Source of the DNA: Dromiciops gliroides
Lineage: Eukaryota; Chordata; Mammalia; Microbiotheria; Microbiotheriidae
Assembly: GCF_019393635.1 (NCBI RefSeq)
Contig: NC_057861.1
Coordinates: 54,759,532-54,823,531 of the forward strand
DNA: 64,000 nucleotides
Direction: 5' to 3'
Below are positions 8,765 to 60,424 of this stretch, piece by piece. The notes beneath the pieces are model-generated. The model saw only the letters and a list, made by a program, of their open reading frames with translations, ran no database searches and was not told the DNA's origin. Position 1 is the stretch's first letter, and each line of letters opens with the position of its first letter. The position numbers and the translations under genes are program-made.

Positions 8765-9220
8765 CTAACGGAGATAAGGGGCACAGATCGAACTGAGCAT
8801 GCTCCAGGACCATCACCCTACATTCCAGTCATCCTGAGCATCTGGATGAGGTAATCCAGGAGAAGACCACCTGGAATCGGCCCATCAGCAGACTGCTTAG
8901 ACCTATCAGGACAAAGTTGACACCCACCACCAGATCGCTCAGGAGGGATTCTTCCTACCCCAGCGCAACTCGGGAAGACCACCAGCCCCTCACCCAATAA
9001 GAGACTCTTACCCACCCCATCTAAACCCTATAAAATGGCACCCCTCAAGTTAGCCAGGGAGGAAAGCATTTTGTTCTGGCAAAACCTCTGGCCGGTTTCT
9101 CTTGTGCCCCAATAAACCTGTTCTCTTATTCCTAATTAGGTCTTGTTCGAGAGTGTAATTCTTCTCAGAGGAATCCTAAGGACCCACGTGCTTTCTCCTA
9201 TCGGTTTCTCCCCCACATCA
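8602..9220 (+). mobile_element. solo LTR of an endogenous retrovirus, inserted in a microsatellite
   Basis: A 619-bp block starts TGTCATGGGAGG and ends CCCCCACATCA (TG...CA termini). It has a TATA-like CTATAAAATGG near 9030 and an AATAAA signal near 9112, the usual promoter-to-polyA order of an LTR. TTTC repeats abut both ends, so the 4-bp target duplication is probably TTTC but is hidden by the microsatellite. No internal retroviral sequence is adjacent, hence solo. A (CA)16 tract (8729-8760) lies inside it. The right end is inferred from the TG/CA rule. Confidence 0.72.
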
Positions 9221-9222
9221 TT

Positions 9223-9316
<94 letters not shown>

Positions 9317-9399
9317 TTCCTTCCTTCCTTCCTTCCTTCCTTCCTTCCTTCCTTCCTTCCTTCCTTCCTTCCTTCCTTCCTTCCTTCCTTCCTTCCTTC

Positions 9400-9477
<78 letters not shown>

Positions 9478-9485
9478 CTTCCTTC
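9221..9485. repeat. (TTTC)n-(TTCC)n-(TTTC)n microsatellite
   Basis: About 260 bp of pure tetranucleotides in three blocks. It is the right-hand continuation of the tract interrupted by the LTR at 8602-9220. Confidence 0.97.
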
Positions 9486-9489
9486 AATT

Positions 9490-9757
9490 AAGGGCACCCA
9501 GGTGGTACAATGGATAGAGTTCAGGACCTGCAGTCAGGAAGATTCAAGTTCAAATCCAACCTCTGACACTTGCTAGCTGTTTGACCTTGGACAAGTCACC
9601 TAACCCTGTTTGCCTTGGTTTCCTTATCTCTAAAATGAGCTGAAGAAGAAAATGGCAAACCAATCCAGTATCTTTGCCCATGAAAACCTCAAATGGGGTC
9701 CTGGAGAGTCGGACGGGATCGAAACGACTGAACAATCAAATCTTCAATCAAAAAAGC
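9490..9757 (+). mobile_element. long MIR-related marsupial SINE (MAR1-like), full length
   Basis: Plus copy with both halves: tRNA-like head (CACCCAGGTGGTACAATGGA), CORE region, AAAATGGCAAACCAATCCAG, then the CCTCAAATGGGGTCCTGGAG and ACGACTGAACAA tail. Confidence 0.8.
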
Positions 9758-14338: not shown

Positions 14339-14410
14339 AGCACAAAGAATGACTGGGCTTTTAGAGACCAGAGAAATCTAGCCCAACCACCTCATTTTAT
14401 TGATTCCATG

Positions 14411-14784
14411 TGTAATGATTGGAATAACGCCACCTGCTGGATACTTACTGTAGAGGAGTTCTGCCCATGAAGGGAAGGTCTTTGAGGGCAAGACCAGGAG
14501 TCTTTTCTTTGGTATCAGGAAGTGACGCGGGCTAGTGGGAGGAGGAAGGAAGAGACTGGCGCTCAGTCTCGCTTTTTTTTTCCTCTGGACTCTGGTGGAG
14601 AGCGGAGCTAGAAATGTGCTCTCCCTTTAATAGATAGGAATCTAGGCCTTTCTCTCTCTCTTTACCAAATTCTTATTCTCCTTAATAAATGCTTAAAAGT
14701 CTAACTCTTGCTAAAGCTTATAATTTATTGGCGACCACTCATTGGCTATTTTAGACAGTTTAGCTAGAATTTTAGCCCTTAACA
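14411..14784 (+). repeat. 5' LTR of ERV copy A (374 bp)
   Basis: Starts TGTAATGATTGG and ends GCCCTTAACA. AATAAA at 14684-14689 is the likely polyA signal. Against the 3' LTR it differs by two substitutions (T/C at LTR position 6 and a C/T at a CpG) and one 14-bp indel, so insertion was recent. A CTCF-type motif lies near the start. Confidence 0.95.
14426..14440 (-). promoter_or_regulatory. CTCF-like motif in LTR
   Basis: The reverse strand reads CCAGCAGGTGGCGTT, close to the published CTCF core (CCA-N-N-AG-R-K-GGC-R). Binding is inferred from sequence only. Confidence 0.5.
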
Positions 14785-14786
14785 GA

Positions 14787-14804
14787 TGGCTGACCACGAA
14801 GAGG
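14787..14804 (+). other. candidate primer-binding site, copy A
   Basis: TGGCTGACCACGAAGAGG begins two bases after the LTR, the expected position and TGG start for a tRNA primer site. I cannot match it confidently to a particular tRNA. A seven-codon frame starts at the overlapping ATG (14786). Confidence 0.55.
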
Positions 14805-14911
14805 AAAGCTGAACCTCACTTCTGATCTTCCGGTTGGGTAAGAAATTTCCCCTACCCTTTTAACTGCTAAGTACTGGTGTACTGGCTGTGTTTTCCTTTA
14901 AATTTTTTCGA

Positions 14912-15790
14912 ATGGACCTTTTAAACTCCCTAATTATCCTATTTTTGATTTTAGTCTGTTTAACCGGACAAATGGGAGATAAGATCATGTTAATGCTTTG
15001 TTTTTGTGGATTTTCTATTTTTCTTTTTATTTTTGTTAGAAGAGCCAGCAACTTACTCACACAAGGAAATATCTCTCCCTCTCCCAACCATGCTTTTTCA
15101 GAGAAACCTGAAGAGATTCCTGCAGCTTTTCCCAGTTCTAACAGTAATTGTTGCTCTAATTTTGCATGCCTGGAGGCAATGACCCACCCTCTAGAAGCTT
15201 TTAATCCCCTAGCACCTGGAGGCAAAGTGGGGGAAGAGGAATCCAGGCCTGAGTTCAAAATCAAGTCGGATTCAAATTGCGCTGGTCCCTCCCCTCCTCC
15301 CCAGACCCCACCCTCTACTCCTCCCATGGCCAAGCCCATAGCTTCCCCTGCCTGGGAAGTCCAGAGATCTGATGCGCATGCTCAACTTTTTCTACCTGCA
15401 TTTGCAGCTTCAGGCTCAGCCCTTCCCCGGCCTGGCTGTGCTTTTGAGACAATCTTAGAAAACTCTTTAAATTCCAGATATGCTTGTTTTGTTCATAATT
15501 TTGCTAACCTGCTTTTGTCTTTAATTAGTAATCTTATAAAGCATTTGTATGGTGAAAAGACTGACAGACAATATAAAGGGGTTAAAGAAGAAAAACTTAA
15601 GCTGAATAAGAATGACAATCATCAACATAGTTCAAGACAATGCTTCTTTTGGCATGGAAGGATATATATTGTACAGAAATGTAGAAGTAAGCAGCAAGGT
15701 ATTGATATGAGTATTGGGGATTTTAGATATCGGAATCAAAAGTGTTCTGAATTCACTCAGAGTAATTGTATCAGTTCAGAGGTTACATAG
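14912..15790 (+). CDS. orphan ORF of ERV copy A, unknown protein (292 aa)
   Basis: The longest open frame of the element, taken from the first in-frame ATG; the frame is also open upstream without an ATG. Seen in the translation: two hydrophobic, membrane-like segments (about residues 3-18 and 25-42) separated by a short polar loop, a serine/proline-rich region with a dense proline cluster (about 125-150), and a lysine-rich C-terminal third. No signal-peptidase site, zinc knuckle, protease or polymerase motif is evident. Copy B keeps the same frame open, with roughly 10% amino-acid difference. By position it sits where gag would be, but I do not recognise gag or env. It could be a degenerate gag, an accessory gene or captured sequence. 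Function not assigned. Confidence 0.6.
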   Translation: MDLLNSLIILFLILVCLTGQMGDKIMLMLCFCGFSIFLFIFVRRASNLLTQGNISPSPNHAFSEKPEEIPAAFPSSNSNCCSNFACLEAMTHPLEAFNPLAPGGKVGEEESRPEFKIKSDSNCAGPSPPPQTPPSTPPMAKPIASPAWEVQRSDAHAQLFLPAFAASGSALPRPGCAFETILENSLNSRYACFVHNFANLLLSLISNLIKHLYGEKTDRQYKGVKEEKLKLNKNDNHQHSSRQCFFWHGRIYIVQKCRSKQQGIDMSIGDFRYRNQKCSEFTQSNCISSEVT

Positions 15791-17752
15791 GATTTCTATG
15801 CTATTACATCTACATTTTGAAATTAATGGTAATGGGTTTATTTTCATATTTTCATGCTTTTGAGATTGTGTCTTATACTTAGTTTTTAAAACAAGGAGAA
15901 TATTTGTAAAAGCTTTTTATAGTCATGTGATCAAGTTTATATTTTATAATACTCTTATTAATATTAAGTTCATATTCATTTAGATTTCCTTAGTTTGAAT
16001 TTCACTGTATTTTATTGTTCCATGTGTATTTTCTTCTATTCATTTGTCTATCTAATTTTGAAACATTGCAAGATGGTTTTGATTTTATTATACAATGTTA
16101 ATTCTAGGAGTATTGTGCTCCCATATTCTGAGTTGTTTGTTTTTGTTATTTTTTTTTCCTCAACTGATTATTTGATCAAACTCTTTAAAGCATTTCCCTG
16201 GCAAATTGGTTGCCATGGCAAGTGTAAATTGATTCTAGAAGTATTATTTTTGATAAGCACATTCCAAAAAAAAAAAAAAAAAAGAGGGGAACATTTGTAA
16301 AAGTTTTCTTTTTTCAAAAAAAAGTTTTCTTTGAGATTCTGTTGTGCTTTAACTTGTATTTAAATATGTTCAGATTTTTCAAAAAAGTAATTGTATACTA
16401 AGTTAAAAAAAAGGGGTATTATTTGAAATTGTTGCATAATTATATATTGTGTTCTGAGTCAAGATGTATTCACATTTTTTGCAATCATTTATTATCCTCA
16501 ATTTTTAAATCCATATGAGACTTGGATTATGGGAACTTATCATTTAAGACATTAATTGCCTTTATTCTGAGTTATCAGATGCCAGTTGGCCAAGATGCCA
16601 TCCAATCACAAGAGGAATACACATGAGGGGAGACATGCATGAAGTCAAGGTATGGCTGAGAGAACGGCTTTTGACAAATGTTGAGGTTGGATTCTCTTGG
16701 TTTAATATTTTATTTTATTTTATTTTTCCCCACAATATTGTACAGATGGCTGGAAGTATTCATCCCACCCATCTCACTCCTACACCTGGCTTCTATGCTC
16801 CCTCCTATATGCCTGATGCCATGGACATCTTAATCCCATGGATCTGATTAAGTCTGACTCAGTTTCCTCCAATATGTTCGGTGGCATGGACGTATATTCC
16901 ATCCACCTATTTTAAGCCTGGCATACTGTATGGGCAGTACATATTGCTCAAGTGTGGGAATGCTCATATCCCATCATTTCTCTGTTCTTTTATGGTAACC
17001 CCCATAATTATCTCAGGTGTCATGATAAATACAGTGTTGAATTTGGCCTTGACACCTGTTACCAATTATATTAGATTTTTAAATTTCTCATAATGGCATG
17101 AGGATAATTAGGCAGATGATGCAAAAAGTGATGAAACAAAGATAAAAAATTATTTTTAATAATTAATATTGCAGCAATTGTCTTCTCAATTACCCTCCAT
17201 AAGGGGGGGACTATAGTAATATTATAATTTTAAAGAATGGTTCAATTTTTGTTTTATTATATGTTTCATGTGTAACAACTAAGATTCTGAATTCCCTTAA
17301 ACATGTTTTTGAGAACTTTCATTGTTTGATTTGATTATTGACAAAGCTATTTTAAAGTTGTGTTAAGCTCAATTTTGTAGGAAATTTTCCTGGCTGATTA
17401 CCAGCATCCACACATCAACCCCTGAAAAGACTTCCATTCCACGACTACACCTAGAGGACATCTGAGAAAAGACTTTCAGAGACTTTAAATGAACAGTTTT
17501 GATTTGTTCTTTTTGTTGGTTTTTTTCTCTTTCTGTTATAATATACACCATCTGTAACATGTATTCTCTGCAGAGGCCCTCCCTTTGCAAGACTAATGTC
17601 AAAGCGTCGGTTCATGAGGACAAAAAAAATCGCCCCTCTGGACAAAACTTTCCTCTCTTCCTTTTCTATATTGTTGTTCACATATTATTAGTTAGCAATA
17701 GTTATCATATTGTTTTTACTGTTCCGTCAAGGAAACATTTTGTTTCTTGAGG
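15791..17752 (+). other. AT-rich interior of ERV copy A without long ORF
   Basis: About 2 kb with only short frames (for example 16623-16847 and 16881-17093), which are nearly identical in copy B but without recognised domains. An A-run lies at 16266-16283. At 17201-17212 a second G-rich purine tract occurs that copy B lacks. Confidence 0.6.
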
Positions 17753-17767
17753 AACAACAGGGGGGAC
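17753..17767 (+). other. polypurine tract, copy A
   Basis: AACAACAGGGGGGAC directly precedes the 3' LTR, the expected plus-strand primer position of a retroviral element. Confidence 0.75.
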
Positions 17768-18127
17768 TGTAACGATTGGAATAACGCCACCTGCTGGATA
17801 CTTACTGTAGAGGAGTTCTGCCCATGAAGGGAAGGTCTTTGAGGGCAAGACCAGGAGTCAGGAAGTGACGTGGGCTAGTGGGAGGAGGAAGGAAGAGACT
17901 GGCGCTCAGTCTCGCTTTTTTTTTCCTCTGGACTCTGGTGGAGAGCGGAGCTAGAAATGTGCTCTCCCTTTAATAGATAGGAATCTAGGCCTTTCTCTCT
18001 CTCTTTACCAAATTCTTATTCTCCTTAATAAATGCTTAAAAGTCTAACTCTTGCTAAAGCTTATAATTTATTGGCGACCACTCATTGGCTATTTTAGACA
18101 GTTTAGCTAGAATTTTAGCCCTTAACA
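17768..18127 (+). repeat. 3' LTR of ERV copy A (360 bp)
   Basis: Starts TGTAACGATTGG and ends CCCTTAACA. It lacks the 14 bp (TTTTCTTTGGTATC) present in the 5' LTR. It carries the same CTCF-like motif at 17783-17797 (reverse strand). Confidence 0.95.
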
Positions 18128-18424
18128 CATGTCAGGGGCCCAGAAAGGTTTGGTGACTATGTGACTTATCCATACAGGGTAACCTATCTAGTAAGTTGGC
18201 CATCAGATTCTTAAGCCAGGTCCTCAGTCTGTCTCCAAATGCAGAGTTTTGGGGTTTTTTGCAGTTTTTTGGTTTTGTTTTTGCATTATAACCAGCCTTA
18301 GGAAGCCCCCTTAGTTCATCAGCTGATCTCATGGCTTGGCTTACTCTGGTAGGTGGGAGGCGGAAGAGGATTAGGAGGAATCAAGGGCAGTTTGCTTTGG
18401 GATGATTGAGAATGGAAACATGGT

Positions 18425-39830: not shown

Positions 39831-40054
39831 CTCTAATACACAGTTATAAAATGCACACACATGTACACAAGTCCACAGAAAGACCCACGTGTGTGCACAT
39901 AGTTATGTGTGACACATGCAGAATTATATAAGCTATATGCAAGCATTAACGCAGATCCACACACAGGCACACATATAAACATTAGATACATAGTTATACA
40001 CAGACACACATTCATGTATACAGAGATACATACAAATATCCATGCATATAGTTG

Positions 40055-40554
40055 TGATAAAATAATGGGATTTAGCAGATACTCAAAGGCCCACCTGGAG
40101 ATTAATCTAAACTGATTGAATTAAGTGAGAGTGATTGTACTACTTGAGAAGTACTACTTCAAGTTAACTAGATTGTAAGCACACCTGGCTAGCCCTTAAG
40201 AAGGTATTGTTCTCAGAAGCTAGACTTTGAATTTAACTCGAGACCACCTTCAAGTCCAGTGACCCATGGATTTGGACGACAGCTTGAAGCAGTGTGTAAG
40301 GATTGGCCATGCTCTGGACCTATAAAAATCTTCCACAATCAGTTTGCTGGGGAGTTCGTGACTGAAGCAAGCTCATGGTGGAGGACTTGAGGAAGAACCA
40401 GACCAGGCTGGAACTCTAGGCTAGATAGGCCTTTTCTTAACTTTCTGAACTCTATGTGAATACCTGTATGCTTTAATAAATGTTTAATGCCCAAAGACTG
40501 GTCCTAAAGCTTCTAATTTAAGGCGATCACACAATTTAGATTTTAAACATCACA
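40055..40554 (+). mobile_element. probable solo LTR
   Basis: Starts TGATAAAATAATGGG. Contains CCTATAAAAATC near 40320 and TTAATAAATG near 40475, and ends about ...AAACATCACA. Its R/U5-like part (TAGGCCTTTTC, AATAAATGTTTAA, CTAAAGCTTCTAATTTA, GGCGATCACAC) resembles that of the ERV copies A/B, so the two LTR families may be related. The right edge is uncertain by about 10 bp. Confidence 0.6.
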
Positions 40555-42472: not shown

Positions 42473-42560
42473 TTTTTTTTTTTTTTTTTTGGGTGGGGGC
42501 AATGAGGGTTAAGTGACTTGCCTAGGATCACACAGCTAGTAAGTGTCAAGTGTCTGAGGC
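42473..42560 (-). mobile_element. left part of a SINE split by ERV copy B
   Basis: Minus-strand SINE from its T-run to GTGTCTGAGGC. It continues at 46301 (46297-46300 is the duplicated AGGC) with CAAATTTGAATTCAGGTCCT, the next bases of the SINE consensus. Confidence 0.93.
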
Positions 42561-42933: not shown

Positions 42934-44904
42934 GTCCCCCCTGTTGTTCCTCAAGAAACAAAATGTTTCCTTGACGGAACAGTAAAAAGAATATAATAAC
43001 TATTGCTAACTAATAATATGTGAACAACAATATAGAAAAGGAAGAGAGGAAAGTTTTGTTCAGAGGGGCGATTTTTTTTTTTTTTGTCCTCATGAACCGA
43101 CGCTTTGACATTAGTCTTGCAAAGGGAGGGCCTCTGCAGAGAATACATGTTACAGATGGTGTATATTATAACAGAAAGAGAAAAACAACAACAAAAACAA
43201 CAAATCAAAACTGTTCATTTAAAGTCTCTGAAAGTCTTTTCTCAGATGTCCTCTAGGTGTAGTCGTAGAATGGAAGTCTTTTCAGGGGTTGAGGTATGGA
43301 TGCTGGTAATCAGCCAGGAAAATTTCCTACAAAATTGAGCTTAACACAACTTTAAAATAGCTTTATCAATAATCAAATCAAACAATGAAAGTTCTCAAAA
43401 ACATGTCTAAGGGAATTCAGAATCTTAGTTGTTACACATGAAACATATAATAAAACAAAATTGAAACATTCTTTAAAATTATAATATTACTGAGAAGACA
43501 ATTGCTGTGATATTAATTTTTAAAAATAATTTTTATCTTTGTTTCATCACTTTTTGCATCATCTGCCTAATTATCCTCATGCCATTATGAGAAATTAGAA
43601 AATCTAATATAATTGGTAACAGGTGTCAAGGCCAAATTCAACACTGTATTTATCATGACACCTGAGATAATTATGGGGGTTACCATAAAAGAACAGAGAA
43701 ATGATGGGATATGAGCATTCCCACACTTGAGCAATATGTACTGCCCATACAGTATGCCAGGCTTAAAATAGGTGGATGGAATATACGTCCATGCCACCGA
43801 ACATATTGGAGGAAACTGAGTCAGACTTAATCAGATGCATGGGATTGAGATGGTCCATGGCATCAGGCATATAGGAGGGAGCATAGAAGCCAGGTGTAGA
43901 AGTGAGATGGGTGGGATCAATACTTCCAGCCATCTGTACGATATTGTGGGGAAAAATAAAATAAAATATTAAACCAAGAGAATCCAACCTCAACATTAGT
44001 CAAAAGCCGTTCCCTCGGCCATACCTTGACTTCATGCATGTCTCCCCTCATGTGACAGTTCAGTGTCTGCTCTTGCATGTATTCCTCTTGTGATTGGATG
44101 GCATCTTGGCCAACTGGCATCTGATAACTCAGAATAAAGGCAATTAATGTTTTAAATGATAAATTCCCATAATTCCAAGTCTCATATGGATTTAAAAATT
44201 GAGGATAATAAATGATTGCAAAAAATGTGAATACATCTTGACTCAGAACACAATATATAATTATGCAACAATTTCAAATAATACCCCTTTTTTTTTTACT
44301 TAGTATACAATTACTTTTGTGAAAAATCAGAACATACTTAAATACAAGTTAAAGCACAACAGAATCTCAAAGAACTTTTTTTTTTTGAAAATAGAAAACT
44401 TTTACAAATGTTCCCCTCTTTTTTTTTTTTTTTGGGAATATGCTTATCAAAAATAATACTTCTAGAATCAATTTACACTTGCCATGGCAACCAATTTGCC
44501 AGGGAAATGCTTTAAAGAGTTTGATCAAATAATCAGTTGAGAAAAAATAACAAAAACAACTCAGAATATGGGAGCACAATACTCCTAGAATTAACATTGT
44601 ATAATAAAATCAAAACCATCTTGCAATGTTTCAAAATTAGATAGACAAATGAATAGAAGAAAATACACATGGAACAATAAAATACAGTGAAATTCAAACT
44701 AAGGAAATCTAAATGAATATGAACTTAATATCAATAAGAGTATTATAAAATATAAACTTGATCACATGACTATAAAAAGCTTTTACAAATATTCTCCTTG
44801 TTTTAGAAACTAAGTATAAGACACAATCTCAAAAGCATTAAAATCTCTATGAAAATAAACCCATACCATTAATTTCAAAATGTATATGTAATAGCATAGA
44901 AATC

Positions 44905-45923: not shown

Positions 45924-46296
45924 TGTTAAGGGTTAAAATTCTAGCTAAACTGTCTAAAATATCTAATGAGTGGTCGCCAATAAATTATAAGCTTTAGCAA
46001 GAGTTAGACTTTTAAGCATTTATTAAGGAGAATAAGAATTTGGTAAAGAGAGAGAAAAAGGCCTAGATTCCTATCTATTAAAGGGAGAGCACATTTCTAG
46101 CTCCGCTCTCCACCAGAGTCCAGAGGAAAGAGCGCGAGACTGAGCGCCAGTCTCTTCCTTCCTCCTCCCACTAGTCCGCGTCACTTCCTGACTCCTGAAG
46201 AAAAGACTCCTGGTCTTGCCCTCAAAGACCTTCCCTTCATGGGCAGAACTCTTCTACAGTAAGTATCCAGCAGGTGGCGTTATTCCAATCGTTACA
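45924..46296 (-). repeat. 5' LTR of ERV copy B (373 bp)
   Basis: By eye identical to the LTR at 42561-42933. CTCF-like motif at 46267-46281 on +. Compared with copy A's 5' LTR it reads TTTTCTTCAGGAGTC in place of TTTTCTTTGGTATC, marking a subfamily difference. Confidence 0.95.
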
Positions 46297-46368
46297 AGGC
46301 CAAATTTGAATTCAGGTCCTCCTGAATCCAGGGCCAGCACTTTATCCACTGTGCCACCTAGCTGCCCC
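46297..46368 (-). mobile_element. right part of the SINE split by ERV copy B
   Basis: Carries the SINE head (CACCTAGCTGCCCC). AATAACCT flanks the reconstructed SINE on both sides. Confidence 0.93.
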
Positions 46369-56559: not shown

Positions 56560-57400
56560 GTCAAGCCCCTGGCTCGGGCAGTTGCAAGGGTCTGGGAAGG
56601 AAAACGTAGCCTCCAGAGGGGCTGCGGGCTGGGGTGCTAACAGGACGGCCCCTTCTCTCCTGCATGGGTGAACCCGTGTGCACCCTTCTTCCTAGGGACT
56701 GTAGCTTCGGGGGAAGGAACGCTGCCCCCCAACTCGCGCATAGGGAGGCCCACGTGCAGCCCCTCTCTCTAGGGGTTGCAGGAGGGGTGCGTGGAGGCTG
56801 AAGGGATCCCACATGTATCGACCCCCGTGCAGTGCACCCCTCTTTCTAGGGGCTGCAAGAGGGAGTACAGGGAGGCTGACGCCCCCTCCCTCATCCCTAC
56901 ACCGGTGGGCCCCTGTGTACCCCTCTCTTTATCCACACTCGGACTCCCGTGGCCTTCCCCTCGGTCTGGGGTTGGCCCGGCTCTGGGCCAGGCCCCCCGC
57001 GCCCCGCCAGCCGCAGCTCCAGGGCTGGGGCGCCCCCCCCCACTTGCGGCTGGGGCAGGACCCAGGCAGACGGAGGAGTCAGCTGGAGGGAGGCCCCTGT
57101 CTAGCGCTGGGAGCCGTCTGGCCGGCCGCTCCCCCGCCCTGCAGCTCCCCCTCCCCAGGAGGAGGGGGCGGGGTGCTGTCTGCACAGACCCGCCTTTTGT
57201 GAGCAGTGCCCGCCCCGGCACACAGAGGCCCCTGCCGGGCACCGGGCCAGGCCCCAAAATAGACTGCCCGCCCGCCACCCGGGAGCCCGGGCTCAGTCGG
57301 CTGCCCTGACCCCACCGCGGACTCTCCAGGCCGCCGCCGCCCTGGGCAGGGCCCTGGGCACCTGGGAGAAACCCTAGGGGCAAGGCAACAGGCTTGCGGG
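56560..57400. promoter_or_regulatory. CpG-rich block without recognised gene
   Basis: Visibly high GC with many CG dinucleotides and GC/KLF boxes (GGGGGCGGGG near 57166, CCCGCCCCGG near 57209). Open frames exist in several phases, as expected for GC-rich DNA, and none resembles a known protein. It could be a promoter of an unannotated transcript or an isolated CpG island. Confidence 0.5.
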
Positions 57401-57902
57401 TGTGCTCAAGGATCCATGTGCTCGCAGCTCTGCAGGAGCACACCCCCGTGCACATCTGCAAACCCTGGGATGCAATGTCCTCAGCTGAAAAATACAAGAC
57501 GATCTGTATGGGGCAGGCAGGCACGCACGTCTGCGGCCACAGCCCAGTGCTGCAGAGAGGGGAGCGAGCAAGCGCTGCCTGCGGACCCTGCCCCTAGTGC
57601 CAGCTCATCAAGTACTCGCTGGAAAATCGTGAACGAGGCCAATGGCCCATCTGAGCCTCAACTTCATCTTCTGCAAAATGGGGGCAGGGGCTGGCGGATT
57701 AGACACCAGGTTAAATCTCCTTTCGACTTCGGTGATCTCAGTATGGAAAGTTATAAACTATAAACATTTCTCAATGTTTATACAACCTCTATGTTTATAT
57801 GTGTTATACAACCGTGCACATACACCTCCAGGTTCTTTAACAAATAAAGTTAGAATAGATTTTAGAGGTTATCTAACCCAATCTCCTCCTTTTTAAAAAA
57901 AA

Positions 57903-59529: not shown

Positions 59530-59725
59530 TCATAGATTTAGAGCTTCCAGTTTGGAAGGGACCTTGGGGCCATCATCAAGTAAAAGCTCTTCATTTTATA
59601 GGTGGGGAAGTAGGCTCCAAGAGGTTAAGCAATTTGCTTAGGGCCACACAGCTAGGAAGCACCACAGGCAGGATTTGAACCCAGATCCTCATGACTCCAA
59701 GTTCAGTGCCTTCTATGATGTAGGC
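59530..59725 (-). mobile_element. ancient MIR-like SINE
   Basis: TTCATTTTATAGGTGGGGAA, GCCACACAGCTAGGAAG and GATTTGAACCCAGATCCTCA. The first unit of the neighbouring minisatellite starts just after it. Confidence 0.65.
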
Positions 59726-59750
59726 TGTCTCTCTAAGTAAGTGCCCACAG

Positions 59751-59954
59751 GAATTGGGCTTTGAGTCTACACTGCTCTCTTTCTCTCTCTTAGTGTCCTT
59801 GAGTTCTAAAGGGAATTGGGCTTTGAGTCTACACTGCATGCTCTCTCTTAGTGTCCATGGGTTCCAAAGAGAATTGGGCTTTGAATCTACACTGTTCTCT
59901 CTTTCTCTTTATATTCTTGGGTTCTAAAGGGAATTGGGCTTTGAGTCTACATTG

Positions 59955-59988
<34 letters not shown>

Positions 59989-60215
59989 GTGTCCTTGGGT
60001 TCTAAAGGGAATTGGGCTTTGAGTCTACACTGCATGCTGCCTCTCTTAGTGTCCATGGGTTCCAAAGAGAGTTGGGCTTTGAGTCTACACTGCACTCTCT
60101 CTCTCTCTTAGTGTCTTTGGGTTCTAAAGGGAATTGGGCTTTGAGTCTACACTGTATGCTGCCTCTCTTAGTGTCCATGGGTTCCAAAGAGAGTTGGGTT
60201 TTGAGTCAGGAGACC
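59751..60215. repeat. ~60-bp minisatellite with dimeric pattern
   Basis: Units starting GAATTGGGCTTTGAGTCTAC lie at 59751, 59813, 59871, 59931, 60009, 60069, 60131 and 60191 (spacing 58-78 bp). Unit ends come in two forms, GGTTCTAAAGG and GGTTCCAAAGAGA, largely alternating. The longer spacing is a CT expansion. Because 60 is a multiple of three, long frames appear on both strands; they are not genes. Confidence 0.93.
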
Positions 60216-60424
60216 TAGGTTTAAATGGGGGATCAAACAGTTATGAAGACTGTGATTATAATCCAGTCATTTAAACCTCTCTGAGCCTCAGTTTCCTCCC
60301 CTGCAAAATGAGGATAATTATTTTGACCTCCCAGGGAACTTGGAAAAAAGTGCTTGAAAGTGCCCTAGAAATGTGAGTGTTATTTTTATGATTCTTATCA
60401 TCATTGTCACCATATCCACCTCTG

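Follow-up and report, generated by a model that had tools for sequence, protein, structure and literature searches.

Two complete proviruses of one LTR element were found in the window, by which we mean the whole stretch of 64,000 nt of DNA that was analysed. Copy A occupied positions 14411–18127 on the forward strand and copy B positions 46296–42561 on the reverse strand, and the two lay ~24 kb apart in opposite orientation. Their boundaries were as follows:

14411–14784, forward strand: 5′ LTR of copy A, 374 nt, TGTAA...TTAACA, AATAAA at LTR position 274
14785–17767, forward strand: internal region of copy A, 2983 nt
17768–18127, forward strand: 3′ LTR of copy A, 360 nt
14407–14410 (left) and 18128–18131 (right): target-site duplication CATG of copy A, exact, 4 bp
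46296–45924, reverse strand: 5′ LTR of copy B, 373 nt
45923–42934, reverse strand: internal region of copy B
42933–42561, reverse strand: 3′ LTR of copy B, 373 nt, identical to the 5′ LTR of copy B
42557–42560 and 46297–46300: target-site duplication GCCT of copy B, exact, 4 bp, inside a SINE

Both copies were bounded by paired LTRs with TG..CA ends, as is characteristic of ERVs, and the duplications CATG and GCCT, at 4 bp, fell within the 4–6 bp range of this group. The interval 14785–17767, to which the initial annotation had assigned a non-autonomous ERV, coincided exactly with copy A's internal region, which is bounded by the two LTRs. The LTRs, 4-bp duplications, primer site and polypurine tract that had been ascribed to both copies were all present in A and B. 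When the flanks of copy B were joined over a single GCCT, the SINE was restored without interruption, which gave the empty site of this insertion. This SINE and many others in the window are presumably marsupial SINEs, judging by their appearance.

The two LTRs of copy A differed at 2 of 360 sites and by one 14-nt indel, and those of copy B differed at none of 373 sites. We infer that the two insertions were young and independent. Because the LTR pairs were nearly identical, most of the divergence between A and B should predate integration and have arisen in the source elements, in which the frame described below would already have been open.

The window contained several further repeats. Three direct repeats with a spacing of 85 nt (98% alike) were located at 2669–2963, an 8-bp tandem array at 9141–9558 with a related one from 29815 onwards, and an array of ~60-nt repeats, 61–85% alike to the reference copy, at 59723–60230. 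A frame of 228 aa rich in G, A, P and R was found at 56769–57455 on the reverse strand.

Replication signals and the AT-rich tail

The signals in the leader and at the 3′ end of the internal region, and the elements of the tail, were located as follows:

14787–14805, forward strand: primer binding site of copy A, of tRNA-Arg type, containing two 1-nt insertions when compared with the tRNA-Arg end used for scoring
14838–14843, forward strand: GTAAGA, a candidate splice donor of the leader that follows the primer site and precedes the ORF, read by eye and below the 8-of-9 cut-off
15791–17767, forward strand: AT-rich tail of copy A, 1977 nt, 32% GC, without detectable coding domain
42934–44904, reverse strand: AT-rich tail of copy B
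16266–16283, forward strand: run of 18 A in the tail, a possible poly(A) scar or part of a polypurine relic, read by eye
16746–16847, forward strand: ATG behind a candidate splice acceptor TACAG/ATGG, opening a 33-codon frame in copy A, shifted by 1 nt relative to copy B
43763–43933, reverse strand: 56-codon frame of copy B behind the candidate acceptor, in a 78-residue stop-to-stop piece with the ATG at residue 23
17750–17767, forward strand: polypurine tract of copy A, ending in GGGGGGAC and adjoining the 3′ LTR, read by eye

The primer site began two bases past the 5′ LTR and aligned to TGGCGACCACGAAGGGAC with two 1-nt insertions. Scored against tRNA ends, it reached 13 for tRNA-Arg, a value attained in none of 2000 shuffles. 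Scores for eight tRNAs of other amino acids were 4–8, with Trp highest at 8, and another type of Arg tRNA reached 6. A study of human ERVs gives tggcgaccacgaagggac as the tRNA-Arg primer sequence and as that of HERV-W (PMC11905727). A primer site beside the 5′ LTR and a polypurine tract (by eye) beside the 3′ LTR are the arrangement of an ERV. The 4-bp duplications and the tRNA-Arg primer, and these two characters only, point to a class I-like element; no pol, from which a tree could show grouping with gamma/epsilonretroviruses, was found in 18 translated tail pieces.

Upstream of the working primer site, U5 carried TGGCGACCAC at 14729–14738, and the other LTRs had it at the corresponding position. 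Over its 10 nt it matched the beginning of the tRNA-Arg primer site, and the copy in the 3′ LTR scored 10. A stretch similar to TGGCGACCAC was also present in a probable solo LTR of another ERV family at 40053–40554 (TGTGAT...ATCACA, flanks TAGT/TAAT by eye), the U5 of which was 72% identical to the LTR of the element over 78 nt (E 4.5e-4).

Neither copy A nor copy B yielded a gag, pol or env domain. Stop-to-stop pieces of at least 38 residues numbered 25 in the tail of A and 22 in that of B; 14 and 4 of them, respectively, were scanned, and these 18 translated pieces gave no hit to any retroviral Pfam family with an E of 10 or less. No env profile of Pfam matched the ORFs or the 18 pieces, one piece compared with PDB sequences gave no match, and the six matches in Rfam were all under the gathering scores of their families. 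The view of the initial annotation that the copies lack any recognisable retroviral domain and belong to a non-autonomous ERV family thus agreed with two insertions devoid of retroviral Pfam families at this threshold, and the ~2 kb of AT-rich non-coding DNA reported behind the frame corresponded to the 1977 nt at 32% GC in copy A. An internal region of 2983 nt is too short for a gag-pro-pol-env set. Presumably, the movement of A and B relied on helper proteins acting in trans.

The splice-site scan listed no donor, and acceptor-like sites only inside the ORF (six in A and four in B). A spliced product of 56 codons in copy B, joining GTAAGA of the leader to TACAG/ATGG of the tail, was considered and rejected, since both sites were under the cut-offs of the scan and the frame was shifted in copy A, where the acceptor boundary lay at 16745/16746. 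Copy A had 27 nt at 17188–17214, including a second polypurine-like GGGGGGGAC, that were missing from B, and further G-runs were seen by eye behind A-runs near 16284 and 16413.

The open reading frame and its divergence between copies

Each internal region carried a single long frame in the position of gag:

14912–15790, forward strand: orphan ORF of copy A, 292 aa, in the gag position
45786–44905, reverse strand: orphan ORF of copy B, 293 aa

These were the longest of the eight complete ATG frames of at least 150 codons in the window. When the internal region of A was put through 1000 dinucleotide shuffles, no frame attained 292 codons, and the longest had 177. The power of the three-base period was 3.45 in A and 3.97 in B, with shuffle means of ~0.68 and no higher value in 500 shuffles for either copy. 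The first half of the ORF taken alone gave a weaker signal (P 0.012), and two segments of the tail gave none (P 0.39 and 0.22). An antisense frame at 14860–15339 matched no Pfam family. Upstream AUGs were located at 14786 (8 codons) and, if transcribed, at 14689 (21 codons), so translation of the ORF would need leaky scanning or reinitiation.

Between A and B, the ORF contained one indel, of 3 nt, vs. 22 in the leader, tail and 3′ LTR, 18 of which were not multiples of three. At non-coding rates scaled for homopolymers, the ORF should have gained 6.2 frameshifts, yet it had none (P 0.002, or ~0.001 when multiplied by the chance of no stop). The plain comparison of indels (1 in 879 nt of ORF vs. 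16 in 1977 nt of tail) reached only P 0.03, and the lack of a stop was unremarkable by itself (P 0.19–0.47). The frame had been noted as open in both copies despite a protein difference of about 10%, and this was confirmed, with 31 of 292 aligned codons differing and one extra codon in B. Judged from its length, its three-base periodicity and its lack of frameshifts, the ORF is probably a gene, and there is statistical support for selection having preserved the open frame through the cycles of replication lying between A and B.

All evolutionary statements made here come from one unpolarised pairwise comparison of two copies. The ORF differed at 37 of 879 sites (4.2%) vs. 38 of 1930 (2.0%) in the tail (Fisher P 0.001). 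The LTR and leader differed at 15 of 484 sites, closer to the 4.2% of the ORF, and part of the contrast between ORF and tail may therefore reflect a slow tail. With neutral rates taken from the leader, tail and 3′ LTR (53 of 2414 sites differing), replacements in the ORF exceeded expectation 2.2-fold (31.5 observed vs. 14.1; P 0.0004 allowing for rate uncertainty), and silent changes matched it (5.5 observed vs. 5.1). Pairwise dN/dS was 1.61 (NG86), 2.40 (LWL85), 2.22 (YN00) and 1.74 (ML). The initial annotation had expected a value below 1 for a functional frame; this was contradicted by the range of 1.61–2.40 from four methods on one pair. The test of silent against replacement changes within the ORF was weak, giving P 0.02–0.12 depending on kappa when the 5.5 silent changes were counted as 5 and P 0.106 when they were counted as 6. 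Changes at the three codon positions numbered 15, 14 and 8, not far from even, and CpG contexts accounted for 9 of the 37 changes in the ORF.

Codons 1–157 behaved as neutral (dN/dS 0.99–1.01; 10 replacements vs. 7.8 expected, P 0.26), and codons 158–292 held 21 of the 31 changed residues, with a dN/dS of 2.26 (NG86). The split at codon 157/158 was picked after viewing 200-nt bins, so the P of 5e-05 for the C-terminal half is post hoc; an unsplit test for clustering of the changed residues gave P 0.055. This pattern suggests adaptive change, with the C-terminal half as its main site.

The encoded protein and its possible origin

Hydropathy was high in windows starting at residues 1–14 and 20–32, PxxP motifs were grouped at residues 126–137, and the net charge was +3 at 201–240 and +5 (A) or +8 (B) at 241–280. 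The two N-terminal hydrophobic segments and the proline cluster of the earlier description were thus recovered, and the end described as lysine-rich appeared as a basic stretch at 201–280. An AlphaFold2 model built from a two-sequence input had a mean pLDDT of 40.9 and, at this low confidence, showed helices at 2–21, 24–51 and 184–212 and a strand pair at 242–255. From its sequence, the protein would begin with a membrane hairpin, continue in a flexible linker rich in proline and end in a basic C-terminal part.

No match to either ORF was obtained in Pfam at E up to 10, NCBIfam gave none to the protein, and none to the ORF of A was present in PDB sequences. In a set of 5.8 billion proteins, the vertebrate share of which was not established, 1381 and 4232 candidates yielded none at E up to 10. 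Of the pattern matches in viral_contigs (8) and genome_contigs (28), collections that may leave out the species' own or very near genomes, none was confirmed, and an LTR pattern had no match in viral_contigs. Stray matches to a ZNF462 finger (E 0.68), DUF4891 (E 0.16), a mannanase (E 0.94) and a phage collar-sheath protein (E 1.6) were dismissed as being at chance level. The protein had no gag profile, major homology region or zinc knuckle, and a scan for motifs of gag and of late domains (QG..E, CCHC zinc knuckle, P[ST]AP, PPxY and YPxL) found none of them. Among the matches listed in a full-text literature search, titles and abstract starts described no such element.

Coding sequence followed by an AT-rich non-coding tail and the A-run at 16266–16283 is a layout that makes capture of a host mRNA a serious rival, in which the ORF would be the coding part, the tail the 3′ UTR and the 18 A the scar of a poly(A). 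Precedents are the crocodilian ERVs with KIT-ligand or nectin3 (PMC4299795) and ERV-Hako with pieces of the SUSD6 and SPHKAP 3′ UTRs (PMC11905727). However, Pfam, NCBIfam, PDB sequences and the 5.8-billion set (of unestablished vertebrate share) all failed to bring up a relative, no AATAAA was seen by eye just upstream of the A-run, and the run adjoins GAGGGGAAC and may instead be part of a polypurine tract relic. Capture is in our judgement unlikely.

It appears distinctly unlikely that the frame encodes a derived gag or gag-leader protein from some unusual ERV lineage, with its similarity lost and its capsid part deleted or diverged. The ORF does sit behind the primer site and the candidate splice donor, where gag begins, and a hydrophobic start, a proline-rich linker and a basic end come in an order that resembles that of gag functions. 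Against this, Pfam yielded no gag family even at E up to 10, the scanned motifs were lacking, and helices were predicted only at 2–51 and 184–212 with low confidence. It is very unlikely that the frame is open by chance or is dying, that is, non-coding retroviral DNA in copies too young for its loss. Such an origin would agree with the youth of the copies, the lack of any homologue found, a dN/dS that was not below 1 and was ~1 in codons 1–157, and the probability of 0.19–0.47 that no stop arises under neutrality; but the frame was longer than in all 1000 shuffles, showed three-base periodicity and had a deficit of frameshifts (P 0.002).

On balance, we lean towards a class I-like ERV family that is non-autonomous and has, at the position of gag, an orphan gene whose frame was kept by selection. 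The full-length RNA would begin in the LTR and double as the likely mRNA for the single protein encoded in the place of gag. Proteins of a helper ERV would package this RNA and reverse-transcribe it from the tRNA-Arg primer, for which the anatomy is present in the copies, and integration would then produce the 4-bp target duplications. The hairpin would anchor the protein in an internal membrane and leave its basic part free. There it might serve its own RNA, e.g., by delivering it to the assembly site of the helper, or, alternatively, blunt a host factor; either role would fit the layout and the fast change. The fast replacement in the C-terminal half would then mirror a contest with the helper or the host.

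Non-autonomous LTR elements are usually viewed as RNA passengers without a product of their own. A passenger in which a lone orphan gene is kept open, and in which amino acids change faster than the surrounding rate, would show that such elements can evolve a protein for their own spread. A bolder reading, which we hold to be unlikely, is that of a parasite of a retrovirus whose only gene encodes an orphan membrane protein under positive selection that hijacks helper particles or counters a restriction factor.

Comparison with known elements

In the ETn/MusD system of the mouse, ETn has LTRs and no gag-pol of its own, and it is moved by a coding relative. The present element is similar in having LTRs without gag-pol, but ETn is not known to carry a long frame of its own. 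HERV-W belongs to class I and, like other ERVs primed by tRNA-Arg, has gag, pol and env, none of which was detected here. The primer site of the present element is near-identical to the one of these ERVs.

Among marsupial elements, PhER of the koala is described as 8 kb long, with 478-base terminal repeats, a tRNA primer site, limited env similarity and no protein-coding capacity (PMC5696478), and recKoRV as lacking the proteins for its own transposition (PMC5696478; also PMC11703332). Both resemble the present element as LTR passengers of marsupials. By description only, PhER differs in its length, its repeats and its lack of coding capacity from an element of 3.7 kb with LTRs of 360–374 nt and one ORF.

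In the crocodilian ERVs, the captured KIT-ligand or nectin3 was reported to be under purifying selection (PMC4299795). They are like this element in that a foreign open frame is intact in several of their copies; however, their host gene is recognisable and under purifying selection, whereas the present frame matched no host gene and showed fast replacement. ERV-Hako of humans, a Group II element, has a tRNA-Trp primer, 3′-UTR inserts and duplications of 5 or 6 bp (PMC11905727). It shares with this element the state of an ERV with non-retroviral inserts and differs in group, primer, type of insert and duplication length.

A survey of ERVs in Dasyuridae used 486 known retroviral proteins to find gene-containing ERVs, included a RepeatModeler step as well, and lists clades of 7 kb or more. 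The protein-based step would miss the present element because it is without such genes, and the RepeatModeler step could have seen it as a repeat. The length of the LTR of copy B, 373 nt, was the same as that listed for the betaretrovirus-like marsupial clade MEBrv 5, a comparison of lengths only, and a link to this clade is disfavoured by the 4-bp duplication and the tRNA-Arg primer.
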